A stretch of 64,000 nt of DNA, taken from assembly GCF_003073045.1 (NCBI RefSeq), contig NC_037600.1, forward strand, positions 14,589,188 through 14,653,187, read 5' to 3'. Positions 4,237 to 55,375 of this stretch are shown here, one piece after another; the stretch's first letter is position 1, and every line of letters begins with the position of its first letter. Below the pieces are notes generated by a model that ran no database searches, was not told where the DNA came from, and worked only from the letters and a program-made list of their open reading frames with translations. The DNA comes from Pomacea canaliculata. Its lineage: Eukaryota > Mollusca > Gastropoda > Architaenioglossa > Ampullariidae. The position numbers and the translations under genes are program-made.

Positions 4237-7200
4237 CTTCTTCTTCTTCTTCTTCTTCTTCTTCTTCAAAACAACGCGTGATTTATATAGCGCATACTCA
4301 CTCTCGTTAGGATCGTGCCTTTAGTGCTTGATGGGATGGGCATGGGCAACAAGCGACAGACGAAAATATAAAAGCAGGACCGATAACTGATACAAGATGA
4401 CCAACAAAAGATCAAATATAAAACGCAAAAAGGAATCAGGTAACAAGAACTGAGAGTATCTGATTCTGCAGAGTAAGAGGAGTAGAAGTTTGAGGATGGA
4501 CTAGCATTGCGTGGGCTGTTCTTGGGAGTGATGTTCGAGGAAGAGATGTGTCTTTAATGAACATTTAAAGAATTCAATGGTGGGTAGATGGCGGATATGG
4601 AAGGGGAGAGAGTTCTATTGTTTTCACTGCACAGTAATGTTGTTGTTTTGGTGACAGTAAGATACCCCACTGTAATGTTTTAACCATTCTTATCTAACAT
4701 AAACAAGTAACTGAGAGTCCAAACATTAATTAAAAGGTTTAAAATTTTATCTTCCTTCTTTCAGACAAACTCTACGACATCTGCGACTACAACGCTTCTG
4801 TCATTGACGCCGACTCTGGTGTCCTTAGCAACCGTCAGTCGTCGCTTCACAGCTACAACGATCGTGGGTTGTGGCGGTCGTTCTGTGGTCAGACTGAGAC
4901 CCAAACCCAATCAGACACTTCAGTGACAGTCGACGCTGCCACTCACTGCAACGAAGGCTCCTTCAGGCTGAGTTATGTTCCCTCGAGTGGTCACGAGCAA
5001 CCACTTGCATGCGGGACCCGTCTTCACTCCATCTTTGCTGTGACGTCAGGAGAGATCGTGGTCGACTTCTTCTCACACCTCGGACATGGCGGATCGGACG
5101 AGACTTTCGTTATCCTGTTTGAGCGTAAATATTTTATTTATTATAATGATCCTTTGGTCAAAAAGTGTTTGTCAACAAGTGTCAAAATATTGTTCTGTCT
5201 CTCTTCTTGTCCATTCCTCTATCGTGTTTACAAAGACAAGATTTTAGCCGCAAGTAGCGTGAATATTATCTACTTACTCACCCCAACGCAGTTTTTGTCA
5301 TTTAATATCTCTTTATTTTTTTCGATTGCCCTATATGTAGCCCTCAGTGCAGATTTAGTTTCCTTGTGAACTTTAACCCTCTCTTATTACAGTGTGTCCA
5401 CATTCTGTGCCCACACGATGAAACGTTTACTTGCTTTAAGCCAACAGGTTAATGATACCTGCCACTTTTCATGTTTCTACTTTCTGCTTTTCCAGTAATT
5501 TCTTCACAAGTATGAAAGAAATATCGTAATAATAGGCCAGGAAAATTTGTACAAAATAAGGATAGCATGTATAAGGGTTCAAAAAAAAAAGATATTTTTC
5601 TCCTCAATATTCAAGCAATAAAGTTTTCTTTGAATTCATGATCTACAAGTAACAGTATCTTTTTTTTCCAGAAAAGCCATTTCAGCATCAAACACAGGAA
5701 ATTTTGCTTGGGGACGACGCCCGTGTCATATCAACGTTTGGAGAAACTTCGTTTAATGGTAAAGTCGTTAGCCTTGAATATTTGCAATGAAGATGAACTG
5801 CGGACGACTGAGAAAAATTTGTATAGGGCATATATATCTATATATATATAACTCCTAATTTTGTCCTTTAAGAGGATATCTGGAATGTAAAACCAGGGAG
5901 GCAATGAAGCCAGAATCTAGATCTCACCATTTTGCAAGGTTTTCCGCTGCTTTATATTAAAGTAGAACATAAAACAGTCAGCAAAATATACATATCAACA
6001 TATAACACTTAGTATTACACCTCGTCTCACTGAAACTGATGTTTGAAGCACTTCAGCTTGTTTCAAACGATACGATTTGAGAGGAAAATAATCGAATATA
6101 ACAATAAATAAAATTTAATAATAATAGTCTGTAAACAATAATTTTAACTGGTAAAGCGTGTGTGGAAATAAATGTAAACTTTAGTAGCTTGAAAAACTTG
6201 TTGTGTTGAACCAAACTTCTTACACTCATTTACATTTTGTTATTCACAATATAAATGAGATTATTTTGAAACCTTGGTTAGAATATGATAATAGTTATGG
6301 TCCAGGATCTCTAAACATAGCGGCTCTATAATATTTTATTTGTAATAGTAATTGTCTCTCAAGGAAAGTAATGACTACATCACTATACTTTATAGTGCAT
6401 TTATGTAGCCTTTATATAGCCTGACAAACATGGTTTGTAGTCCGGATGGTTGTGGGTTTGGGTAAAGATAATAAATCGAGCTTTCGCATAAACTTGTGTC
6501 AACTGTAGCTTTGTAGCAGGGGTGGGAAACAGGTCCGCAAAATCAGAAAGACTCGAAAGTCAGTAAATCTAGGCTTTGGTTGTTTTTTGGGGAGTTTTTT
6601 TGTTTGTTTGTTTTGTTGTTTTTTTTGTTTGTTTGTTTTGTTTTGTTTGTTTGTTTTGTTTGTTTTGTTGTTGTTTTTATTTTGGGGGGTGTTGTTTTTT
6701 TAAAATAACAGTATAAATTTACATTAAGCGAATCATTATAACGCAGATTGTGAAGGACAAGAAAGGAACGTATACAGGACGTAGTGACGTAGACATGACG
6801 TAGGGACGTAGGCAGGATGCATAGAAGTAAATAGAAGTCTCCTGCCCGCGGCCTGTGCTGAGGTGACTGTGTTTACACTGTCGTCAAACTAGGAGCTTAC
6901 CAAAGACAACAGCCTAAGTTTTCAGTTGATAATATGTATATGTCCGGCGAATGATTTAAATATTCAAACGGACTTTGGAGAACAAAACTTCTCCACTCAT
7001 GTAAAATATTTGACAAATCCATTTTTAACAAATGTTTTCGCACACTTTGTACTGTGGTGAAGTAGAGACTACAAGTGTGTTTCTCGCTCTTCCTCAGTGC
7101 GAGCCTTCCATCAGCAGCTGCCTGCCCCTGACGGAGGAGTCGGTGACCCTGAACTGCCCCTGGGGTGGTGTGATCTTTGACCCACGGGTGCGCATGGGGT

Positions 7201-13339: not shown

Positions 13340-16300
13340 GCAAGTAACCATTTTGTTATTGTGCCTAAGCAATCAATGTTAAGCATGTAGATTTTGGCAC
13401 TTACCTGTACAAGCAGTACAGCACGAGTGGCAGAGGGTTAAAACTGTGTGATGTGTGCACTTACGACAGTTCTCGCTTCTGTCACTTTTTTTTCTTTGAT
13501 TCTTCATGTCTGTGGTTCTTTATTTTTTAATTCAGCCTTAGACCTTCTGTTCTGTCTTTCTTTCCTGTGATTTGCTTCTCTACATGCTCCCCCCCACTCT
13601 CTCTCTCTCTCTCACATACACCATGCACCCATGAGCACACAAACACGTGCACATATACAGAAAAATACATGCAGATACACATCCACACATACACATATAT
13701 TCACACATACAAGGACACATACACAGATATTCACATGTGCAAATATGCACACATAAAGAGACATGCTCCCACATGTACACATAGACACAGACGCATATAT
13801 GGACACATACTCACACATACACATGTGGATTTATGCTCGCTTTTCGTGAGGGTGTTGTTGTTACTTCAGTGTACTCAAGACGTGGCAAATATTTTTAAAG
13901 CAAATGTCTCATTTTTAAGGTAAACAAAAATGGTAAAGGTCGTACCATGACCTTTTCAGGTCATGAGGAAGTGAGGTATTAGAGACCTCACATTTCTTGG
14001 AGCTAGCTTTACATGACGGGGTTGAATGCGGCATCTGTTTACAGGGCTGGCTGCCTTGCTGGGATATAGCCTTAGTTGCTGGCTTTTAGTAACACCAATA
14101 CCCCCCAACCTCTTGTACAAGATGAAAAAAGTACTGTACAATAGATAAAATATTAGTTAGATCTCATATCTTATATTAGATCTCAGTTATGGTATAAAAA
14201 CAACTACTACACCACAAAAAGCTTTACGTTGCATTTATAGACTTCAAAAAAGCATTTGATTCTATTGTACAGGGAAAGTTGTGTAACATTTTGAATATAA
14301 ATGGGGCCAAAGGTAAAACCTAAACGCTTTCCAGAGTATTATAACGTCGTTCAGGAAGAAGTTAGGGTAGGTTGTGATGCTACTGTTTCTTTCTTCTGCC
14401 CCAGAGGGTTAAACCAGGTAACATGTGGTTCTGTCCTCTTTTCTTTCTATCGACTTGTTAGCAAAGAATATTATTGAGCATGGTAAACTTGGAGTGCAGC
14501 TAAGCCCCGACCTACTACATATCATTAATTCTGTTATTCGCTGACGACGTAGTCCTCACTTCAGATACACCACAAGGCCTTCAAACTCAACTAGATATTT
14601 TGTGTAGTACTAGCAAGCAACAATGTGTAATATCTGAATGATGTCCAACACATAGGAATTTGTAATGATTTAATACAGTTTCGACTTGGGGTTTCATGTC
14701 TGAAGCCACATCGTTTGCGTTTTGGGAACAAGCAAATTGACAATCCTAACATCCCATTATGTCCCTTTTGTCCTGGTGTTGTAGAGTCGGAATTGCATGT
14801 TGTGTTCGTATGTCTAATATACAATGTATTGAGAAAGAAATTGTACATAAAACGTATTACCTGTAACTATCTCCCTTTAGTTTATCCATGCTACTAGCAA
14901 ATACTACCCAGTATATCGTTAATAATGTAGCAAATTGCATCTATGAGGCATTTGAAGAACAAAATTTAACTAATAGTTTACTATTTCATCACACTGTTTG
15001 TGTATCTAAGGATGTATATTTTATTGCATTGTTTTATTTTGTACTGTGTACTGTTTGGATTTCCCTTGAAATGGGCCGATCAGTCTCTCATTCGCTCTAC
15101 CGGATCTTTAACCTTAATCATCCTGAAAACGCATGAGCCATCATTCCTGGCATCAATTTCAGGAGGGAAAAAGTGTCGAAGCTCCATCACAGAACGAAAG
15201 TTCCGGAAAGACCTGCTCGTCACCTGCCCTAGGGATAGTCTTCTTACCTCTGCCAACATTGTCGGAGTCAATGGCGGGTGTGAGGGCATCTCCCCCGAGT
15301 TGTACGTACAGGTAAGAGTGAAAAAAGAAAGCCAATGCTCCTGAAAAAAAACATAGTTTATCTTTCAAACAGTTTGGGCTTCCAGTTTTCTTGCTATTCT
15401 AGAAGTGCTTATTTACAGTTAAGCAACATAAGAGAGGTAAGTCCCATTCCTCTTACTCTACACCTTTAGTTGACGAAACATCACCATCTACGTCTAGAGA
15501 AGTTGCTAAATTTATAACTTTAAGCTCATTGAAACAAGAAGCTTTTTTACAACCTATCCAGTCCACAGTGTACATCTTTGTAGAAGGGAGGGAAATCTGG
15601 ACTCTCAATTTTTTTTTTTTTTTTTGTTCATGTATTTACATTCCTAAATAGTGCAAAGTTGAAAAACAATAGCACGTTGTACAATTTATGCACCACGTAC
15701 ATTCATGTTTAATGACATCAAATTAACGCGCATGCGTAACAGGACTTTTGTACATTTACTTTTATATTTGGAAGATTATTTAAAACCCGAAACTGACATC
15801 TGATATCGGTAACAAACTACACGTTTTATTGTAATTATATTTTTCTCATTACTTTGTGACATACTGGATTTGAATTATTTTCTGCTCACTTTCCCCTGCT
15901 TTACAGGAGCTACTGTGCCACTGGAAACCTTCTTGCCAGATCGTAAACAATAAGAAACCCACCTATTTGCTCATGCCCAAGGGAGGTAGTCCTTCAAACC
16001 TCCCTACAAGCCAAGAATGTTTAGCAAAGACTGCGAAGAGCTTCAAATTGAACTTTGAATGCACGAAAGGTATATCAGGAAGGAAAAAACTTTCAATGAC
16101 ATGATGCACCCAATAAAAAAAGTAACAATGCTCAAAAAGAAAAAAAGCAGAAGAAGATTACTCTGGAAACGACCTGTGATTGTTTATTTATTAAACAGTC
16201 ACACGGACAATTTACGTTCTTTCAATGCTGGGATAAAATTCAAATGAGCATTTTCATGTTTAACTTTATTGTATGTTGTGCTTTGACACAATCAATGAAC

Positions 16301-23129: not shown

Positions 23130-26100
23130 ATGCGCTTTTCTCTCATTTTCTTCCTGTTTCTGCTGGGTCTCCTCTTAACTGAGGAGAAAAAAGAGAGAAA
23201 CGGACAGAAAAAAAATAAAGGCGGAAAAAAGAAAGGCGAGTACATCATCTTCATTTTCGTTTCAGTGCAGTCAGTCTGCGTTCGCAGTAAACATTTTAAT
23301 TTCATTTGTTATTTCGATTTAGTCAGAAATTTTCCAAACAACTCTTTTGCTGCTGAAAGGTCTGTTTATATATTTTGATTATCATACTCTCAAAGCAGTA
23401 TACAATACAACTTTTTATCCGATGTGCTTGGTTTTATAGGATTATCTTCCACTGTTGGACCTGTTACTTCTGGTGCCAAAGGCATTGACTATCGTCTTTT
23501 CTGTAGTTCTTTGTCTTGTTTTTTCATTATCTCTTTATTTTTCTTCTTAGATTCCAAAGGGAAACCTTCATGTCCTAACCCAATGAGTGTCGAAGACCTC
23601 GAGCAAGGACTGAATGCTACCTGTCCTGGAGGAGTCCTTGCCTCTGTCAACATCATAGGTGTCAATGAAACCTGTAGGGGCATCACACATGACCTCTTCG
23701 TACAGGTAACTCACTTTTTTTTTCTTACACAAACGCTCCCTTCTTACGTTCTGGGCACTTTAGAGTGGATTAAATTATCACCTTTATTTCTTTCATTTTT
23801 TTCGAAAGTTTAAACATGTCTCAATAACACAGCTACAGCAGACTGGTTCGCATTTTCGTTAAAAGAATTTTTTTGTTAGTTTAAGAAATGCAAATAAATC
23901 AGCACTAACGTTTGAATTGTTTTTTTTTTTTTTGTTTTGTTTTTTTAGGTCTTGGGGTTTTTTTTTCTTAATATCATCATTTATTTGACTGTCCAACACA
24001 GCTTCTGGACTGTTGATATCATTACAAGATTCAAGATTCAAGATTCAAGATTCTTTTATTCTGTCGCCCTCCAGGGGGTATTGAGAAATTAGGAAGTATC
24101 AATGCATATACATTCACATTCTTATCATTAAATATAGGGTGTCTCTCATTTACATATATTCAAAATCATCCACTCATTCTTTCCTTTCCAATCATTTCGT
24201 GTAAACTTGGATATTGTAATCGAGTAGGTTAAAGCATCTGGACATATCAGAACATAGGATAACCACTCTCTTGTTCTCCCTCACTCTCTTTCACAGGTGT
24301 TCTGTATTCTTTACTATTTCTTTATCACAGGGGTAATGCACTCCCATCCATCCTGTGTACAATATATCCCACACACACACACGTTTTATCAATTTAAACT
24401 AATTTACTGTTCTTAGTAATATCTTTACAAATTGAGATAGTCTACTAAGGGTCTTTTTTATTTTTGAGGCTAATAAAGATTGGAATTTGTAAAGCATTTG
24501 GGTTACGAGTATAGTAGCTTGGTAAGTATTTTTTTCGCTGGGTATCAAATTTGTTACAATTAAAAAGATAGTGGAATTCATCCCCTATGTCCTTGGTGTT
24601 GCAGAGTCTACAGAACCTTTCATTTCTAGGGATATCTGTTTGCCTACCTTTATTCACTGGAAAGTGGTTATTCAATGACCTAAAATTTTATTAAAGGGAG
24701 GTAATCATGTGGGGGTAGGATTTTTAAGTAGGGTTCTAGTAAGAAGCTGCTTTTAAACATTCTATAATTTGAGTATATTTGTTTGGAGTCTAGTTCCCCT
24801 AACCAATTCTGGATATACTGGTCCTGTAGGGACCTATCTACTTTCTTCTTGAACCAATCACCTGTTTATGTTTATGCTTTTCTGGTTTATCCATATTCCA
24901 CTTAGGCCAAGGTCTTGCAGCGTTGTCTGGATAGTACTGATATAGCTAGACTTAAGAATGTTTGTTTCGTGTAGATTTAAGAGCATTCTATATGTAGTGC
25001 TTGATAGTTTATTACTGTTGCTAATCAATTTAAACCAAAAGCTAAGCATCCTACTTTAATAAGAAGACTAACAGGAAGCGACCACATTCTCCAAGCACTA
25101 TACAAGATGGGGTGGACTTTCTTATTTTTGAGGACCATTTTATAAAATCTTAGCTGTAGTTTACCACAAATGTCACTAATTCCTGATGCCCATATTTCAC
25201 AACCATAGGTAAGTACTGGAAGAACAATTCTGTCAAACATGTCGAGTTGAATATCTAGTGGTAGCTGTGACTTTTTACATTTTTTCAGTAAAGCAAACAT
25301 GGCTCTTGAGGCTCTGTCATATAGGTCTTTTTGTGCTACTAGAAATTTGTTATTGTAGTTTAGTTTCAGGCCAAGATAGGAGTAATAGTCTACTATTTCA
25401 AGTTTCTCACCGTTATAAACAAATGTTGGTTTCTTTCTTATTTTACCTCTAGAGAAAATAACTATTTTTGTTTTGTCTGAGTTAATTGTCAGGTTCCACT
25501 TGTCACAGTATTTTTTCATGCTGTCTAAAGCATTCTGTAGATTTTCTGGTGTTTCGGATAAAATGACAGTATCATCTGCATATAGGAGTATGAATAATTT
25601 TAAGAAGCACATCAGTTCTTGGGGGGTGAGGTTTATTTGGTGTCAGTTTGGCTAGTTCTGGGAGACCACTAACAGAGTCTGCTAAGAGATGCGTTTTCAG
25701 ATCATTAAGATAAATTGCAAAATAATAGAGGAGATAGGTTCTCCCCTTGTCTGACACCATGACTACTTTTAAAAAACTCTGACTGGTTTCCATTAATCTT
25801 AAACACAGGATTTGCCTTTTTGTATATATCCTTGATTATATTCATGAATCTTCCCTTCGCTCCAAGATCTAGCAATTTTTCCCACAAGTAAGTTCTATCT
25901 ATCTTGTCGAATGCTTTCTGGTAATCTATAAACGCGCAGAAAACTCGTTTTTTTTCTACTTAGTAAAATTTCGAGGATGCTTTGCATGGTGAATAGGTGG
26001 TCAAGGGTGGATAACCCCTGCCGAAAGCCTGCTTGTTCCTGTCCTATGAGATCATTTTCCTCTAGGTAATGTTTTAAGCGTACATTAAGGACACTTGTGA

Positions 26101-29100
26101 ATAGCTTACCAAAACAGCTAAGGATTGTAATGCCACGGTAGTTATTTGGATCACTTTGTTCTCCTTTGTTTTTAAAAACTGGTGTTATAATACCTGTTGC
26201 CCATTCTGTGGGGGCATGACCTGTTGCTAATATGAGGTTAAAGAGGGCTGTGAATAGGGTCAGAGTCTTTGGTTGAGAAAATTTTAAAAATTCATTTATT
26301 ATATTGTCATTTCCACAAGCTTTATTTCCTTTTAGCTTTTTTAGGCAATTAGCAACCTCACTCTCTGTTACTTCACTGTTGAGATAGTTATTGCTAGTTT
26401 CAGTGGTATTCACAAGTAGGTCAGTTTCAGGTGTGTAATTGCCAGGATTGTTTATCTCCATGAAGTGCTGTAAAAATTCATTACAGGTTGGGGTTTCCTT
26501 CTTTATTTTATCACTGTTATTCTTGTTCAGAATGTTCCAGAAAACCTTTGGGTCCTTACTTCTTAAGTGTCTAATTTTCCTAAACCATTTTTGCTGGTAG
26601 AGTTTAAACTGCTTTCTTATTTCTCTCTTGTAATCCTGTCCAGCTCTATTCATGCGTGATTGGGATTCTGGGTTGTTACACGTTTTCGCTTGGCGCCGTG
26701 CTTTAAAGAATTCGCGTCTTTTCCTGCGACAGTTGGGGTTAAACCATGGTTTGGTTTTAGGTTTTTGACTAGGGACTTGCTGTTTCTTTGGGTTGCTGGC
26801 ATAAGGGAGTAGGCCACATCTACTAGCACTATCCAGCATAATATTACATACCTCTTGGGTTAGTGCATCAATCTTGTGTAAGTCTACTTCATGATTTCTT
26901 TGTAACAGCTCGTTGACTTCATTTGTTAAGTGGCTAATCTTGTTTGAATCTAGGGAACTAATAAAGTCATCTTTCATTCTGTTTTTCCATTTGGGTTTCT
27001 TTAGTGTTGTGTCCTTCTTTACTTTATCATCATTTAGTAATGGGAGTACTTTGGGTTGAAGGTTTTGTTTGGAAGGTAGTTTGAGGTGGAGTTCTAGTGG
27101 ACAGTGAATATCAGAATATAACTCATTAAATTCTAGGACATTAAAGTCTTCAATTATATTAAAGAGTTCTCCAGACAGTATGAAGTAATCTACTATGCTT
27201 GAGTTTTTACAGGTAAGCTTTCCTGTGTTTTTGTCGGGACCTGCTCTTCCATTGACAATTGCAAGGTTTAGGTTTCTGCATAATTCAATTAGTTTTTTAC
27301 CATTGTTATTAGTACTTTTGTCTTGGGAGACACGTTTTGGTAGATCATAATAATTATTGAGACTACAATCAGGGTTCAGTGGTTCATCACTCAGGTTTTC
27401 TGAGATTTGCCCAGTTCTAGCATTTAGGTCTCCCATTATACATATATGTTCTGTTTTAAGAGCAAGAAGGGTCTCCTCGAGTTCACTAAATGCATCTAAA
27501 TTTACATAGTGTGACCCTTCAGGTGGTATGTACATGCCCACAAACATAATATCCTGTCCTATGGCTTCCTTTTTTACTTTTAGAAATAAGGCATCCTGGT
27601 TTATCTTGTGATCAACAAAAGAGTAATAATGCACACTATCGCTATCTATATTATTTTTTCCAGATTGCTCTTCAAAAATAGTTACATATTGAGCGAGCGA
27701 TTCCCTTACTAGCATAAGAACACCTCCCGATCTTCTTACGCATTTGCTACGGTTCTTGTAGAAAGACACATAGCCATCAATGTGGATCGAATCAGTGTTG
27801 TCTAACTTGCTTTCACACAGGCAACAAATATCAGCTAAGCATATCTAAAAACATTGTGAAAACGCTCTCAAATTTATTTAATAGTTTTAATACTGTATGT
27901 TCTGCTCTGTGTGACAACGAGTTGTAATAGAGACTGTTCATTCTATTTCCTGTATGTTATAGGCTGCAGTTTGTTTTTAATGATTGAGAAAGCCCTGGGC
28001 AAGATTCTATTTATCATCTTTCTCGGTAAATGATCCTCTAATCTCCAGATACACGCCTACAAACATCGCCAAGCACAGAAAAAGTCAAAATCGTGGCATC
28101 ATTTTTGTTTACAAACACGCCTAATAAACAGATGGTCCCAGCTCTCCCATTGGTTGCAGAATTCACAACATAAATGCACTGATGTGCATTTCTGACTGTT
28201 TTGTTGTTGACTTCAGAAGGGAGGTATCTGGGGAGATAGCATCTTGCACTGAACTTTACTCGCTCAATGGAACAACATTTTCCATCCTATTAGGCCTTTA
28301 AGCATGTCGAATAGAGATTGTGAACACACTGTCGTATCTGTTAGTAGCTTCAATACAAATTGTTGACACACACTGTTACTGTTATTCATCGATGCTAAAC
28401 TAGTATGTTTTGACTGTCCTTCCTTAGGAAAACCAATGCTACTGGAAGACCTCTTGCTTAATTAAATACAACAAAGCTCGGAGTTTTAACTTCATGCTAA
28501 AACTCAAGGAACTCAGTACAGATGAGCTACTGAAGAACGGCCACTGCATGACCAAATCGCCGGGGACCTTCCATGTGCACTTTAACTGCACTAAGAGTAA
28601 GCTAAAATACAACAAAAAGATACCACCAACATAACAACAGCAACAACAATAACAAAACCTATCCCGAACCTTATCAATACATTGTCAGTAGTAGTCATTC
28701 GGTTTTTTTTTATCAGGTCATTTTTTATATTCCTCACTAAAGTGTGTTGGTGGTAGGTGGGAAAAAAGTATGCTTGGTTCATTTCACTTTTATTTCTTCT
28801 TCTAGTGAGAATTTTTTAAATTGTGTCTGCGTCGTTTCCGATAGTATAATAAGCGACCATAAATGAGATGAGGAAGAAGTTTAAAACAAAATGGCTAATC
28901 AAACAAGGGGAGATGGAATTTCATGATCTTTTCATTCATTCTCGATTACAGACAAAGTCGAAGTCTTTCCCATTCTTCATGAAAGCAACACAAGGGAGAT
29001 AAACGCTGACAGAGGTATTCTCATAAGCCACCCCGATTATCCTTGGAATTACGATCGCGCCGACCACAATGTAACCCTTCGGAGACCCGCCAACGGAGGA

Positions 29101-32582: not shown

Positions 32583-33124
32583 CAGGGCTTCTGTTAAGGT
32601 TTAATTCTTTGGGGTCCCAGGAACCCCTTCTTCAGATTTCTTAGGAGTCCCAGGCTAACTCTAAGGTGTCCCTTTACTAAGTTGAAAAAAAACCAAAACA
32701 AATCGACTACTTTGTTCAACTGCCTTTTAGGCACACAAAGCACTGTAATGTCTAGTCAGAAACGGCGATATTTCTGTGCCATGAAGTCTGTGCAAACATC
32801 TGTGATGAGCTTATGCTCACTGTACTTGAGGTGCTCACTTTCTTTCCGTTTCTGAGACGATGATTCTATCCACGCTGTCAACGACATCTTGGAACTCTTC
32901 CCAGTAAGGAAAAAATCTCAGCGCAAGGGAAGTAACTCTCACCTTGTAGCAGACGACAATAATAGATTAAGCTACGATGTCAGACACTACACTTACCCAA
33001 TTTTGTATCTGTTCTTCGCCAAAATTTGAAGGGGTCCCCTGGGATCCCATTGACGAAAATTGAAGGGGTCCTCCGAACTTTTAATGCGTACTGTACGCAA
33101 TTTTTTGCGTAAGCAGAAGCCCTG
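32583..33124 (-). mobile_element. hAT-like MITE, copy 1
   Basis: 542-bp element with perfect 11-bp terminal inverted repeats CAGGGCTTCTG / CAGAAGCCCTG. It is flanked by direct repeat GGATTA (32,577-32,582 and 33,125-33,130). A second copy in the opposite orientation lies at 51,746-52,280. CAGGG ends are common in hAT elements, but the flanking repeat is 6 bp rather than the usual 8, so the superfamily is tentative. Confidence 0.85.
32756..32887 (-). CDS. 43-codon ORF conserved in the MITE (copy 1)
   Basis: Starts MSLTAW and ends KYRRF before TGA. The same 44-codon frame with the same start and stop is open in the other copy, with only substitutions between them. It may be the N-terminal stub of a transposase left by internal deletion. 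Function unknown. Confidence 0.45.
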   Translation of the reverse strand: MSLTAWIESSSQKRKESEHLKYSEHKLITDVCTDFMAQKYRRF

Positions 33125-35038: not shown

Positions 35039-38000
35039 ATGAAGGTGCTGCTGGTGCTACTGGTGTTGCTGTGTTTTGCAAGCGCCGTTAGAACTCCCCG
35101 AGGAAGGAAAGGACCTGCCCAGGGATCTGCATCGCGACGAAATTCGCAGCAAGGTACGATGGGATGGCGACGATAGGATAATAGATTGCACCTGCCACGA
35201 TGTAGACACTGCTTTCTCACTTTCCAAAACCCACGTATAGCTCAACTCCATTCACTCTTCAAGCCCTGCAATCATACTTTATTATTATTATAACATGAAC
35301 CGAAATGAATCTGCTTGTGAATGTTTGTATGTTTGCATGCGTGTCTGTTATCTGTGGTCATGCATCTGTGTGGAGTAATACTGATTATTTCTTTGCTTCT
35401 CTATAATTTACACTAAATTATTATGAGCTCTTGATTTTAAAAAAGGAAAAGCATGTTATAATTAAATTAAAATGTTGGTTCTAGTATCATTATTTTGTAC
35501 ACTTACAAAAAAAATATTTGTAAGTGCGCGTGTCTGTCCGGTGTCTGAACGTTTAGAACAGTTGGATCAGTACTTTCTAGTATTCTCTGATTCATTAACC
35601 TTAATTTAGGCAGTGTTGGAAGCTTGTGTTTCACTCCATTACTATGTTCCCCTTCATCTGGAAAAAAGGACTGAAAATGTGTTTTTCACAATAGCAGTTT
35701 TGAGAAAAGGTGAAGGAAGTAATTATCAAAGTATTACTACGTCTTATTCAAGTACGTATGAACAAACCACTAATGTACAGGTCCGGTTCTACCATTAGGT
35801 TAACTACGCAGTTGCCTCGGAGGCACTATAGTATTCACAGGGGAAGTGAGTCGCATCGATAAAATAAAACATTAAAAATCCTTCCGCTAACTATAAAATG
35901 TTTATAAATATGCCATAATATACCATCTGGAAAAATGTCCGATAGCCATCATCAGTATTGAGATCGACAGACCTACTTTACTGCGGACTGCAGAATATTT
36001 TGAACGACTGTTATAAAGACATCTGGTGCCATTAATAGTTCCATCTCTTCTTTGGTCTGTATGTCTGTCTGTTTGCCCAGGTCTTTCGTTCCTTTTCTTT
36101 TTTCTTGTGTTTTCTACTTGTTTATCAGGAGTGTGATGAGAGAGAAAGATGCCTTGTACGGTATATGCCTTGATAATGTATCACTGAGCGATTTTTTTTT
36201 CTAGCAGCAACATGCAAAGACAGGAACAACTTTTTGCTTCCATCCAACGATCTAAGAACCAAGCCTTTCAGCTTCAAGTGCCCCAGCGGTCCTGTCTTTG
36301 AAGTCAACGCCACCGCCGTGGCCGGGGAGTGCAGGGGATACACCCAGCTCCTCCTTGCCGAGGCCAGAAGATGCAAGTGGAATAAAACGTGCAGTTTGAC
36401 CTACAGGGGTCACCCAATCATAACGATAGACAAGGACTGGTCAGGACAATGTGTCGGCAAAACTCCGGAGTCGTTCGAAATTAGCTTCTCGTGCATCAAA
36501 AACAAGAGTAAGCCCAATTGTCAAATTGTCTGGTGTCTTCTTCATTCCATTCTTCAAAAATTCTTCTCTCTCTCTCTCTTTCTCTATCGTCAACAATGAT
36601 AGCACCAGCAGCAGTCCTCTTTGCTTCTGCTTTTGTGATAAAGCCTCCCGTCCTAGCAGTAACAGTAGAGCACAGATGGCAGCTATGAAAAAATATCGTC
36701 ACTCGACACGAGCCTGATATGCCTTCCTAATACATCTTGTATATCTCAAAACTCCCACGAGTGCTGTCAAACTGGCATGCGACCATGAGGTCTTCCCAAC
36801 CATCCAGCTATGCCGCGATCTCGGATACACACAATTATGTATGCAAGTGAAATTTATCTAAGGACATCTACTTGGTGGTGGAGTGTTTGGACTCCTCTGT
36901 TTCCCAGCCAACATTGTTAAAAACATCATGTTGTCTGATGGTGGTGCTTTACAAGCAAGGAAACACTAGGCCTTTGTTTTACCCAAATCATTGTACCATT
37001 GTACCAATCATGAGGAATTACCTTTTAGGTTTTGGCATCCCTAGTAATTCACTTCTACTATAAAGATATTTTCATTATGAAAAAAATAAAAAAGAAGGTC
37101 GATGAAATTCTTTTCTTCTATTTACAGTGAAATAGAAAAGAATTTAAAGACATTTATCCAATCGTCTATTTTTTGATTAATTGTTTTGTTTCTTTCTTAT
37201 GTATATAATACTTTTAAACGGTTTACTTTAGCTTTAAAATATTATAATCATTGGGCTGAATCAAATGATTAGTCGTGGATTACCAAAAACAAAGTCAGTG
37301 ATTATTGCGTCATTATATTCATAATGCGATTTTTTGAAGGAGGAAGGTGGTGAGTATCATCTAGCCATCCATCTGCTTGATTTTCTTTTCTTTTTTGTCT
37401 CACTCCACTCAGCGCCTGTTCTTGATGTGTTGGGAAATATATCTACAACCAACAAAGAGTCAGGGCTGGTTCGAAGCCACACGTTGTATCCATGGAGCTA
37501 CAGAGATGGTTCCAAGTATGGCATTCTATACTTCACTCGTCCACAGAAACCCGGAATTAAGAATCTATGGTTTACGGTGAGACGTCTCACTCATATTCAT
37601 ATATATGTGTGTGTGTGCCTGAACACGTGCTTTGATGACATATCCATTAAGTTTAAACAACAATAGACAACTCATACGCAAGTAAGACTCTCATAAAGTA
37701 TTTTTTAAATTTGAATATTTGCATCAAATGCATTAACCTAGCAGTCGTTCCTTCAACGTATTTTGTCCCATTTTAAAAAAAAAAAAACTTGTTATCTACC
37801 TTTGTTCTGCTGCTTATTAATTTTTAAATGTTTATGATTCTTGCAAATTTTCATTGTATTTCGATACATATCTCTAATTCTGCGTGAACCTTTTCGGAGC
37901 CCGCCGTTGACTCTCATACAGCATTTTTTTTTATTATTATTTATTTATTTTCTTTTCATAGGTGCAAGACTTCGGGATACGGCACAGCGATTTCCTGGTT

Positions 38001-50196: not shown

Positions 50197-50261
50197 CTAA
50201 AACATCCTCCAGTGTGTACCTTGCAACAAGCGCTTGCAGTCGTGTGTTGACTACTTTGTAC
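50197..50261. repeat. 65-bp target-site duplication, left copy
   Basis: Identical to 51,018-51,082; starts CTAAAACATCCTCCAG and ends GACTACTTTGTAC. It lies in MULE coding sequence. Confidence 0.9.
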
Positions 50262-50922
50262 CATATATGATGTTGTTCCGCCGTGATCTTCCTTCCAAAT
50301 CGTCCACTTTATGTTCTACTTCTTCTAGTTTTCTGTTGAGCTCCATATTTTCTCCTCTTAGCTCTTCGTTTTCTTCTTTGAGTACCTTTATTTCTATCAC
50401 CAAGTCTTTCACTTTATCTTCAAGAGATGTGATGCCAGCACTCACAGAGTTTACGTTTACATTCATATTGTCAATCTTGGTATTCATTTCGGATTTAAGT
50501 TCTTTTAGGAAACTTATCACATCCATTAGGGTAGGTTCTTGCTTAGAAGCTGCCGTAGGTTCAGAACCGTTAGTATTTGAATTCATCTTCTCAGGTGGGG
50601 GTCTGGCAACATTTTCTTCTACAACACTTGTATTACTTCTTAGCCATGGCGAAACCTGTGGTGAAGCAAACGATTTAGAGGCTGCTTTTGTTTGTTTGGG
50701 GGGCCCAGGATTCGTTTCAATGTCACCGCACTGCAGAAGTAATGTAGCGATCGCGAAAGTCAAAACAAGAGACAGCGAGAGGCTGTTCAGTCGCACAGTA
50801 CTCACACGGTTTCGTTGCTTGGCCATGGCGCGTCTCCACATGAAGTGCACAAACACCGCTGTAAAACATCCACAACAAGTACGAAATAGTAAAGGACTGG
50901 CTGGCATGTTTCCTCCAAACAC
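50251..50922 (-). pseudogene. LINE ORF1 fragment with 2A-like peptide and coiled coil
   Basis: An N-terminal hydrophobic stretch (LSLSLVLTFAIATLLLQ) leads directly to GDIETNPGP at 50,701-50,727. This is the 2A ribosome-skipping consensus (D-x-E-x-N-P-G-P) known from CR1/L2-type retrotransposons. After it comes a Pro/Ser/Thr-rich spacer, then heptad-rich coiled coil (VLKEENEELRGENMELN, KLEEVEHKVDDLEGR). The last residues before the stop come from the flanking MULE. The ORF1 RNA-binding end is missing. Confidence 0.82.
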
Positions 50923-51244: not shown

Positions 51245-51330
51245 CACCTTATACTCAGGCACGCGTACTCGCTCACTTGAACATTCCAGGCCAAATTCGG
51301 CCGCCACAAGCGCGCAGCAGTTGACGTCTA
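51245..51330 (+). repeat. Left 86-bp terminal inverted repeat
   Basis: 85 of 86 bases complement the right repeat. The single difference is C/T in CACAAGCGCG versus CACAAGTGCG. Confidence 0.95.
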
Positions 51331-51712
51331 TCCTTCACCCCTACAGTTTTACCACTTCCTAGACATCTTCTTGAGTTGTGATGCTTGATGTTACAGGCAG
51401 ATTAGTTCTTAATCCTATAATGTAATTCATATGATCCAAATGCCATTTTCATCACTTAACATTTTGCTAAAATCTTGAATGCATTCTTAGTCACAATATA
51501 GAAATGCTTTGTGATATCTAAAATACATACGCAACAACAGAGACATTGCCATTCCTCTGTGATGACACTGCAGCACAGGAGCCTGTCAACTGCTGCTACA
51601 AAGACTGTGCTCTGAGCATAAAAAAGAATGCAGATCTTTTTACCAGATTTCACAACAAATACCTTCATACACTAAGAATATCTATGTGCACAACAAGTTA
51701 TTTTTAATTTTT

Positions 51713-54144
51713 CTAGCACTGTAACAAATGTTGGATATATTAATTCAGGGCTTCTGGTTATGCAAAAAGCGCATTAAAAGTTCGGAGGACCCCATTAATT
51801 TTCGTCAATGCGGTCCCAGGGGACCCCTTCAAATTTGGGCGAAGAACAGATAAAAAATTGGGTAAGTGTAGTGTCTGACATCGTAGCCCAATCTATTGTT
51901 GTCGTCTGCTACAAGGTGAGACTAACTACCCTTGCACTGAGTTTTTTCCTTACCGGGAAGAGTTCCCTATTTCCAAGATGTCGTTGACAGCGTGGCTAGA
52001 ATCATCGTCTCAGAAACAGAAAGAAAGTGAGCACCCCAAGTACAGTGAGCATAAGCTCATCACAGATGCTAGCACAGACTTCATGGCACAGAAATCTCAC
52101 CGTTTCTGACTAGACATTACAGTGCTTTGTGTGCCTGAAAGGCAGTTAAACAAAGTATGTTGATTTGTTGTTGTTTTTTTCATATTGTAAAGGGATCCCT
52201 TAGAGTTAGCCTGGACCCCTTAGAAATCTGAAAAAAGGATCCCTGGGACCCCAAAGAATTTAGCCTTAGCAGAAGCCCTGAATTAATAACAGCAGTATAA
52301 GCTAGCTTGCATTTATGTGCAAACCAGAAGAGAACATTTCCATTTCACATTACCTGATAGCAGGAGTTGTATCCTCTCCTGGTGCCACGTCTTCTGATAA
52401 CAACAAAATGCACAGAATTAGTCATATGAAATTCATAACATGCAAAAAAGTACAATTTCTATGTTAATTTCATGATCTTAGAAATTTAATATTCTAGCAA
52501 CAATAACAACAAAAACAAATAGTGAATTACCTTGCCTGAATTAGATGCATTTGTATTTTATGTTTTTCGGCAATTATGGCTTTTAATGCTGGCAAGCCAT
52601 AGCTGAAGGGTTCCTTGAAAGGAACACCTTCAGGCAGACCTGTCACAGCCACCTCTGGACAGATCTTATGCTTTTTATATGGGAAATTTCCCATACTTCC
52701 AGTGGCTTGGCCTGAAGACAAGAAGACAGTGCAACAATTGGTAAATCTCCAAACTTACATACAACCCAGTGACATAAACTAGTTCATCACCAGTAATACT
52801 GCAAACTCACCATACAGTTCATTGAAGAGGTTTTGAACCTCCCGCCGCAGGTTGGCCCTTTCCTCTTCCTTCGCCCCTTTTGGTGGCCTTGGGATACGTG
52901 TTGGTGGGGGTGTTGGGTTTTGTTGCACGGAAGCAGCTTGGCCTCCTGGAGACTCCAGGATGCTGGTTTCAGTCGTTATTTTATAAAAAAAAACGACCAG
53001 CCAAGCTGCTTCATGAAGTCAGTCTGGAAATGTGGTAAAAACAAGTTTTACAATACATATTTATTGTCTATCCCTGGTCGAAACAGATTTAGAAAGTTTC
53101 CTTTGTTGCTGGGAGCTCCCACAGTCAACTGAGAAAAATATACATAATAACTTTCCAGCACGGGATTACCCACATTTCCTAATGTACAGTACAATAGACT
53201 TGTATTAAGTGTTACATACCAGCTGATTCAATTCAGAGCACACCCTCCTCAAGTATGCAGTTTTTTGTCCTTCATCTTGAGGAAGTTGCCCTCTGCAGGA
53301 CATTGCATCTTTTTTGAATTCTTGTTTTTCATCTGCTCTCAAGCGAGCCCACTCACCTCTCATTCTTGCAAGAAACACAGCTCTCGCTGGAAATAAACAA
53401 TGCAATGTATAAAGTATTGAACAATACATATTCTTACTAGAGCAATCATTGCTACCATTATAACTATTTATTTTAGAACATGCTTAGAAACAGTCATTCA
53501 TGCACACCATAAATATTTCAGCAATTTATTCTGTAGCATAGCTCGAGCTACATATACACACATCATATTTTCATCAACAAGCGTATGCTATTCTTTCGAG
53601 CAGTTGAAATGTCTATATCAACTCGACTAAATCTGAAGTAAACATTTGCCATAACTATGTCGTTTGCATCCAGCTCCATTTCACTGCAAAATAAGAGGGA
53701 TCCTTTTACACATGAAAGAGCTTCATACCTGAGTAGTAAAAAATGCATTTATAAAGTCTCCAGTAACGTATTGACTTACTTTCACCAGGGATACGTGTCC
53801 CTGTTTTGGTGAAATGGCTCAAGGCCGTTGTTCTCTTTTGTCCAATTATCTGAAAACAAAAGTACCAAAGCAATGAGGTCAGCGATGCGCTACATCAAAT
53901 TTCACCTTTATTCGTAATGCAACGCGTGAGAATTTAATGCTTGTAAATCAATGTTTCGGCAGCTTTTATACAGCGATTTTCGGTGATATAGCATTAGTTT
54001 CTGGTAATGAAAAAAACAGTTCCCATCCCCATCAAGAAAGATCACATTTATCTTCCTGTCGATTCCAGATTTCACAGATACAAAAATGTACATTATGAAA
54101 AGGAAACTTACTCGTCGAAACTGCTTAACAACTTTAGCAGACAT
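51713..54144 (-). CDS. Spliced gene inside the TIR element, GTF2I-repeat-like segment
   Basis: Exons (minus): 54144-54112, 53849-53780, 53386-53220, 53023-52811, 52711-52531, 52393-52354, 51718-51713, all with AG/GT borders. Starts MSAKVVKQFRR. Middle exons give an Arg/Glu-rich helix (ARMRGEWARLRADEKQEF). Exons 4-5 join as EVQNLFNELYG plus VTGLPEGVPFKEPFSYGL, which resembles the GTF2I repeat of TFII-I proteins. The last codons before TAG are CYQ and C. Phases match at every join except that exon 4 is one base short; its frame is lost at a run of nine T. Allowing that base, the total is 237 codons. It could be the element's own gene or a captured host gene. Function unknown. Confidence 0.62.
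51746..52280 (+). mobile_element. hAT-like MITE, copy 2
   Basis: 535 bp with the same CAGGGCTTCTG / CAGAAGCCCTG ends as the copy at 32,583, in opposite orientation. ATTAAT lies next to both ends, offset by one base. It lies in the last intron of the TIR-element gene, so it inserted after that element formed or was carried with it. Confidence 0.85.
51978..52109 (+). CDS. 43-codon ORF conserved in the MITE (copy 2)
   Basis: Starts MSLTAW, includes SEHKLITD, ends KSHRF before TGA. It has the same length and frame as the ORF at 32,756-32,887. Confidence 0.45.
   Translation: MSLTAWLESSSQKQKESEHPKYSEHKLITDASTDFMAQKSHRF
53563..53748 (-). other. Possible alternative terminal exon in the TIR-element gene
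   Basis: After TACTCAG an open stretch of about 58 codons (KGSLLFCSEMELDANDIV and on) ends in a stop, with AATAAA (minus strand) at about 53,531-53,536. It lies between exons 2 and 3. It could be a truncated alternative 3' end; weak. Confidence 0.3.
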
Positions 54145-54399
54145 GTTGCTGGTATATAAAAAGACAAGAATGCACTTCACGTGGATGAACCAAAGTATGG
54201 CGCGAATAAAGCAATAAAGTTGGTAGAGTGACAGTTCTTGGCCGTTCCTTTCAAGTAGAAAGAACGATCGTACATAATTCTAATATAATTTTCTCTTTAG
54301 TATACGTGCATCCCTATAGAATTACTAGTTGAAGTCTTTAAATCCTTTTTTTCCCGCTTTAGTTTAAATAAAGACAATTCTTGTAACTTGCACTGACAA

Positions 54400-55140
54400 T
54401 GACGCTATAGCTATATATATATTAATTGCAATATTATATATTTCATACAGGTTTAGATAACAGTTCCTTATTTAAATCTTTTTTTTTTTTTAATCAAGCC
54501 ATATCCATGGGTGCACATGAACGAAGTTTACGTTACACTATTTAGATTATTTTATTCGTATCACGATGTAAATTAAGCTACAATTTACAATTATATACCA
54601 AGTATGATCATATAAAAAAAAAACAACCCTAAATATTTCTGTAAAACTATATGTTAGTTTTAACTAGTGTGAAACTAGAACACGATACGCATTTTACCCT
54701 TCAAAATTTTCCTTTTTTGCTTTTAATTTCGTATTTTGACTTTAGACCACAACGTATATGCATTTTAAAAAAATATATTTTTTTTTAAATTTCGTATCAC
54801 AACGTAAAGAGAAAAAATTTGGATATTTTTAATCTGTGCAAAACTGTACACCATGACACGCACATTATTCAATATAAATTTCTTTCATCTACTTTTTTTT
54901 TTAAACTTTTGTATCACGACGTGAATCCACAATTTACACAATACCACATACGATCATTTTAAAATAAAATAAATCTACATATTACTATAAAATTGTGATA
55001 TTTTTAGTTCTGCTCCTTTTAAATCTGTGCAAAAGTGTAAACCAACACAAGGGCATAAATAATACTTCTTTTATATTTATTTCCTTCAATTTATTTAAGC
55101 TTATGTATCATGATCTCAGACTATACCCAATAACAATCAA
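54400..55140. repeat. AT-rich degenerate subterminal repeats of the TIR element
   Basis: GTATCACGA/ACGT-type motifs recur at about 54,560, 54,797, 54,911 and 55,103. AATCTGTGCAAAA recurs at about 54,831 and 55,021, and CAATTTACA at 54,581 and 54,931. Spacing is irregular, so this is a decayed tandem array near the right TIR rather than coding sequence. Confidence 0.55.
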
Positions 55141-55191
55141 TCTCTCGATCCGATTGGTCAGTCCATGCGGTGGACATGAAACGCTAGAAGT

Positions 55192-55277
55192 TAGACGTCA
55201 ACTGCTGCGCACTTGTGGCGGCCGAATTTGGCCTGGAATGTTCAAGTGAGCGAGTACGCGTGCCTGAGTATAAGGTG
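55192..55277 (-). repeat. Right 86-bp terminal inverted repeat
   Basis: Inverse of 51,245-51,330. Both outer ends abut MULE coding sequence. Confidence 0.95.
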
Positions 55278-55375
55278 GTTATTAGTTCTGGGCAGGTTGT
55301 CTCCCACACGATTGTAGACGTTCCACATGGTGACGTCGAATTTCGGGCGACCATATTGAACTTTTCTTGCAAGTT
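55278..55375 (-). pseudogene. MULE transposase segment upstream of the TIR element
   Basis: The minus strand reads ARKVQYGRPKFDV, TMWNVYNRVGDNLPRTNN up to the element boundary. The MULE continues at 51,244 with SVEGWHRAF, so the two halves were one gene before the insertion. Confidence 0.75.

Follow-up and report, generated by a model that had tools for sequence, protein, structure and literature searches.

Structure of the inserted unit

The window analysed here, i.e. the whole stretch of 64,000 nucleotides of Pomacea canaliculata DNA, contains a unit that is bounded by two inverted copies of one 86-bp end and carries a seven-exon gene on its minus strand. Its features are as follows, with L numbers denoting loci elsewhere in the genome:

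51238..51244, no strand: left target-site duplication GTTATTG, its 7-bp length taken from L011, L013 and L016
51245..51330, plus: left terminal inverted repeat (86 bp), facing outward (CACC...) at 51245; 12 other genome loci match the end
51331..51530, minus: start of intron 7, where the gene copy terminates
51531..51611, minus: exon 7, with an in-frame stop at a residue position of the relative
51746..52280, no strand: 535-bp repeat nested in intron 6 and shared with L015, with presumably hAT-like ends
52354..52393, minus: exon 6, the relative's apparent acceptor being lost and the start coordinate uncertain
52531..52711, minus: exon 5, bulk of the GTF2I domain
52811..53023, minus: exon 4, whose reading frame is disrupted at a homopolymer run; the GTF2I domain begins here
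53220..53386, minus: exon 3, from exon mapping and relatives
53780..53849, minus: exon 2, from exon mapping and relatives
54112..54144, minus: exon 1 with the start codon, from exon mapping
54145..55191, minus: AT-rich gene-upstream region, which accompanies the end, partly or wholly, in other copies
55192..55277, minus: right terminal inverted repeat (86 bp), facing outward at 55277, on the side common to the other genome copies
55278..55284, no strand: right target-site duplication GTTATTA, a 6/7 match to the left copy

As originally predicted, the two arms (51245-51330 and 55192-55277) are near-identical inverted copies of each other (85 of 86 bases, the lone mismatch lying at position 67), and GTTATT flanks the unit on both sides. 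When 20 bases of the end were sought with up to three mismatches, the two arms were the only matches in the window, and none occurred in 100 shuffles. Since three relatives carry exact 7-bp duplications, the target duplication of the window unit is best read as 7 bp, too (GTTATTG/GTTATTA, with one mismatch).

If the unit is taken out along with a single AATAAC and one additional base next to the left arm, the flanks join as an open frame of 138 codons, with the peptide ...VGDNLPRTNN leading up to the join and SVEGWHRAFDKRM... following it. The claim that the insertion cuts a MULE reading frame holds for the interrupted frame itself, the MULE identity being presumptive, and a Pfam search of the 111-residue joined flank peptide gave no match. 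The target of the insertion looks like another mobile element. That a segmental duplication or an assembly artefact could mimic such an insertion is extremely improbable, as the flanks read on in frame across the duplicated AATAAC, and 13 further loci with differing flanks carry the end; nothing specific speaks in its favour, and only the homopolymer frame break in exon 4, taken alone, could be a sequencing error.

No ORF of at least 110 amino acids exists between the arms in any of the six frames, and Pfam recognised GTF2I alone in the spliced product, i.e. no transposase domain, so that the interior is, as predicted, without a recognisable transposase.

The carried gene

On the minus strand, the seven exons show standard splice signals except for the uncertain exon-6 acceptor and are consistent with the Pomacea relatives. 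The GTF2I-like segment of the original prediction is borne out by Pfam, which finds GTF2I (PF02946) in the typed, read-through product at 5.5e-17 (62.3 bits versus a curated cut-off of 27), and solved human GTF2I domains match the read-through product at 5.6e-11. A gene of seven exons with a single homopolymer fault had been expected: the seven exons are there, but the window copy has three lesions, namely the broken frame of exon 4, a gap of five columns that removes the relative's apparent exon-6 acceptor, and the stop in exon 7, and the relative has further exons. These later exons and the C-terminal part are missing from the window gene, the related protein P0003 being approximately 195 residues longer. 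Because of these lesions, and because L015 continues past the end of the copy into more exons, the window gene is, as judged from its sequence, a truncated, broken copy made at the DNA level, introns included.

Copies of the end in the genome

A genome query with the first 100 bases of the end gave 14 matches, of which two represent the window unit and 12 lie elsewhere; with the diverged copy L018 as query, 15 matches were obtained, including one extra locus, so that occurrence of the end only here is excluded and at least 13 other loci carry it, all counts of end loci being lower bounds. Eight of the 12 other loci (L009-L016) align with the end from its first base and extend inward along the gene-upstream side, over the following lengths:

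L009, 153 bp
L010, 125 bp
L011, 90 bp
L012, 374 bp
L013, 127 bp
L014, 1506 bp
L015, at least 3928 bp
L016, 89 bp

Among the nine copies that share the end, 33 of the 36 pairs are at least 95% identical. L017-L020 are diverged (87-94%), and their alignments begin at base 3, 4 or 8. L017 represents an older copy that holds parts of the upstream region and of the gene, nearly all of the stretch from exon 1 up to where exon 4 begins, with 91-94% identity. L030 is a short match (42 positions, 93% to the L018 end) that appears rearranged by eye. At L019, a second end-like sequence lies in direct orientation at 4950-5100, approximately 130 bp inside the diverged copy.

The fetched stretches covered some 5 kb inward of the end, or some 15 kb at L014, L015 and L017; within them, a high-identity inverted second end was found only in the window unit (86 bp) and in L013 (21 bp), the latter copy measuring 146 bp in all. 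Exact 7-bp target duplications are present at L011, L013 and L016, and in L011 and L016 they lie precisely where the homology stops; L010 shows a 5/7 match at its junction. No exact 7-base downstream match occurs at L009, L012, L014, L015, L019 or L020, and the distant exact 7- or 8-base matches at L017 and L018 could arise by chance.

One could imagine that this pattern arises by an RNA route, in which an antisense transcript ending ...GTATAAGGTG is reverse-transcribed at the target, so that one end is fixed and the other truncated to a variable extent, and in which both target strands were primed from the same end in the window unit and L013. Such a route would account for the single fixed end with its varying counterparts, for inverted arms (86 and 21) that are different-length prefixes of the same end, and for L011 and L016, where the target is duplicated and an inverted end is missing. 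However, all three exact duplications are 7 bp long and their targets are not A/T-rich, the lack of any ORF of that minimal length of 110 residues between the arms means that no reverse transcriptase of such a size is encoded there, and the 90-base strand folds like its shuffles (z 0.02). From our point of view, the RNA route is quite improbable. Nor did folding support the idea that the 90-base unit stems from a structured small RNA (z 0.02 and -0.63 for the two strands, -0.46 for L018).

A putative source locus

L015, located on C2 (the window is on C11), is taken for LOC112557917 and contains a GTF2I-family gene, with the transposon end lying approximately 1.1 kb upstream of it. Comparison of the internal gene between copies, as had been suggested, revealed that window and L015 are identical in 3826 of 3898 ungapped columns (98.2%), or in 96.3% of 3977 columns if gaps are included. 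The differences amount to 13 of 783 columns in exons, 19 of 1491 in introns, 27 of 1091 in the upstream region and 13 of 533 in the shared nested repeat; given these exon and intron rates, the exons are no better conserved than the introns. In exons 1, 2, 5 and 7, which the codon count covered (exons 3, 4 and 6 lying outside it), four of the changed codons are synonymous; the other two, one of which is the stop, are not, and the exon-3 translations of window and relative differ in three residues.

L015 is free of the stop and the frame break of the window copy and runs on past the window breakpoint into several further exons. The interior of the unit is hence a 98% copy of a locus that itself bears one end, and the gene may be transposon-borne. 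The original prediction had offered two possibilities, a cargo-carrying element or a new transposon family with its own small spliced protein. With a longer near-identical relative on another chromosome and the unit as a truncated copy of it, the Pack-type possibility is favoured and the second reading, the new family, is less probable. Over 86 bases, the left window arm is identical to the end of L009, and it shows 98% identity to the end of L015 over 84 bases. Because the left arm is closer to L009, the direct parent of the window copy may be a locus other than L015, as far as the arms can tell.

Outside the end, L015/L022 (C2) holds an LTR element, Gypsy-type by eye, whose 171-bp LTR pair is 98.8% identical. 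The possibility that the L015 end lies inside this Gypsy-type element was rejected, as the LTR pair closes approximately 150 bp outside the end.

Relatives of the gene

Counting the window and L015, PF02946 is matched 20 times in the genome, and 18 of these matches contain no stop; the GTF2I family is thus dispersed in the snail genome. Five of the 18 other matches (L025-L029, 7.5-8 kb each) encode relatives that are 44-59% identical in the domain stretch, and BLAST of their DNA against the unit gave no similarity. When L026-L029 were scanned more permissively for the end, allowing 7 mismatches in 21 bases, L027 alone gave matches, namely two weak ones.

At E<=10, protein searches returned two hits among 306 scored proteins, six among 7993 (alignment search) and four among 7998 (including P0003), all from Pomacea; as the length and word limits of these searches exclude the long vertebrate GTF2I proteins, the Pomacea-only result is no proof of absence elsewhere. 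P0003 (LOC112557917, 468 aa) shows 97% identity over 85% of the window product, and its first approximately 40 residues are the translated intron preceding exon 3, an intron that is also present in the window. In the predicted fold of P0002 (mean pLDDT 55), the GTF2I domain alone was recognised. In the public models P0004 and P0006, which are possibly chimeric, pieces of the GTF2I family are fused with a GPCR and with a stretch that its source names hAT.

These data bear on a further possibility, namely that GTF2I is a genuine accessory gene of the transposon family and that the window holds a broken, internally rearranged copy of a full element with a second end and a transposase. The gene-upstream stretch accompanies the end, partly or wholly, in the window, L012, L014, L015 and the older L017, and both the largely stop-free genome matches and the Pomacea-only outcome of the three proteome searches, within their length and word limits, would be in line with such a gene. 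However, within approximately 15 kb inward of the L015 end there is no inverted second end, only weak or direct-orientation partial matches, and no transposase was recognised when the ORFs inward of this end were inspected by eye. The missing DNA similarity between L025-L029 and the unit and the gene-free nature of the 89-90 bp solo copies likewise speak against it, and we consider an accessory gene rather unlikely.

Formation of the unit

From our point of view, the window unit is probably a non-autonomous Pack-TIR element that would have formed by transposition from an end already situated beside the gene. At the putative source L015, or in its lineage, the transposon end (CACCTTATACTCAGG...) adjoins the GTF2I-family gene approximately 1.1 kb upstream of it, and transposition starting from that end could remove neighbouring gene sequence of variable length (end bypass). 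In the case of the window copy, the gene would have been taken as DNA with its introns, as far as intron 7, and the other side would be sealed by an inverted copy of the end, 86 bp long and derived perhaps by template switching or from a nearby solo end. The whole unit may then have inserted into the older reading frame with a 7-bp duplication, presumably by a transposase acting in trans, and the window copy would have drifted neutrally since. Insertion in a single event is suggested by the inverted ends, the duplication and the in-frame join of the flanks taken together. The constant 7-bp duplication and the CA...TG ends would fit the P superfamily, which we mention only as a lead.

Several observations count against a Pack-TIR origin. 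Five of the eight base-1 copies (L009, L010, L012, L014 and L015) lack an exact 7-bp duplication, the inverted arms are of unequal length (86 versus 21 bp) in the two copies that have one, and L011 and L016, with duplicated targets and no inverted second end, do not fit a two-ended transposase well. The duplication of the window unit itself is imperfect by one base. L017 further shows that gene sequence travelled with the end, or was attached to it, prior to the recent copies, so that gene-linked movement was no single recent event. It is because of these misfits that the RNA route and the view of GTF2I as the transposon's own gene both retain some probability. One could also speculate on a mobile family that strictly needs only one end, the other end being variable and sometimes freshly inverted, and that exports the GTF2I region in graded lengths; we would give such a family a rather low probability. 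In the strongest form of this idea, if true, the GTF2I protein itself would be transposon-borne.

Comparison with known systems

How TIR transposons capture host genes has been studied extensively in plants but far less in animals, and the way in which capture begins is debated; 370 Pack-TIRs, the copied pieces having a median size of 224 bp, were described in 100 animal genomes (PMC8277862, Tan et al. 2021). As in the Pack-TIRs of that account (PMC8277862), a unit with terminal inverted repeats holds a copied piece of what may be a host gene, with a putative source elsewhere, and a target duplication is present. The window unit has ends on both sides, a target duplication (6/7, with an in-frame empty site) and no transposase inside. 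It differs from the elements described there in that the putative source already bears one end beside the gene, in that the piece measures approximately 3.9 kb as opposed to the published median of 224 bp, and in that a series of copies has one end in common (PMC8277862). The end-bypass model outlined for P elements in the same source is similar in that flanking DNA is taken and downstream sequence is used as the other end, whereas end bypass is here deduced from a natural family of copies (PMC8277862).

Turmoil-1 of C. elegans also represents host coding sequence in an animal DNA transposon, but its captured pieces are reported to lie inside the inverted repeats, in contrast to the one long piece between them here (PMC2572040). 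Galileo, a member of the P superfamily, is described with mostly 7-bp duplications and inverted repeats of variable length, yet its target consensus GTATTAC is unmatched here, and the likeness is one of resemblance only (PMC4168063). Duplications of 7 or 8 bp, as in the P superfamily (Galileo/1360/P), are seen in L011, L013 and L016, a feature shared by other superfamilies. hAT7 of rust fungi, a DDE transposon group with 7-bp duplications, can be likened by duplication length and is described for fungi (PMC12730594). IS3EU has 6-bp duplications and would be alike if the window duplication were read as 6 bp; it was rejected, as its ends are given as TA..TA versus CACC..GGTG here (PMC10045372). 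Dada was rejected as well, since according to its description it is without terminal inverted repeats and targets small RNA genes, in contrast to the 86-bp repeats and the open-frame insertion seen here (PMC3706591).

Animal Pack-TIRs are thus already known, and the graded series with one common end is unusual. With nine copies that share one end, graded gene lengths and a putative source still in place, the end-bypass step becomes testable. The locus further provides a mollusc case of a mobile GTF2I-domain gene; in one literature search none of the papers listed contained GTF2I, and in another none had a title on molluscs.

Neighbouring sequences

Other elements are present in the window. At 50251-50922 on the minus strand, an ORF contains GDIETNPGP, which we take to be a 2A-like motif, followed by a coiled-coil-like stretch as in ORF1 of non-LTR retrotransposons, and the long ORFs at 25025-27769 on the minus strand are presumably LINE endonuclease and reverse transcriptase-like. 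The repeat of approximately 535 bp nested in intron 6 (51746-52280) has a second copy at 32583-33124 with 88% identity; the ends of the repeat, CAGGGCTTCTG..CAGAAGCCCTG, are assumed to be hAT-like, and TAATCC is found on both sides of the copy at 32583-33124. The sole Rfam match, to mir-263, falls inside the nested repeat and far under its cut-off. Repeated short ORFs, for example at 15000-15344 and 36234-36599 on the plus strand, presumably represent galactose-binding lectin repeats of one host gene.
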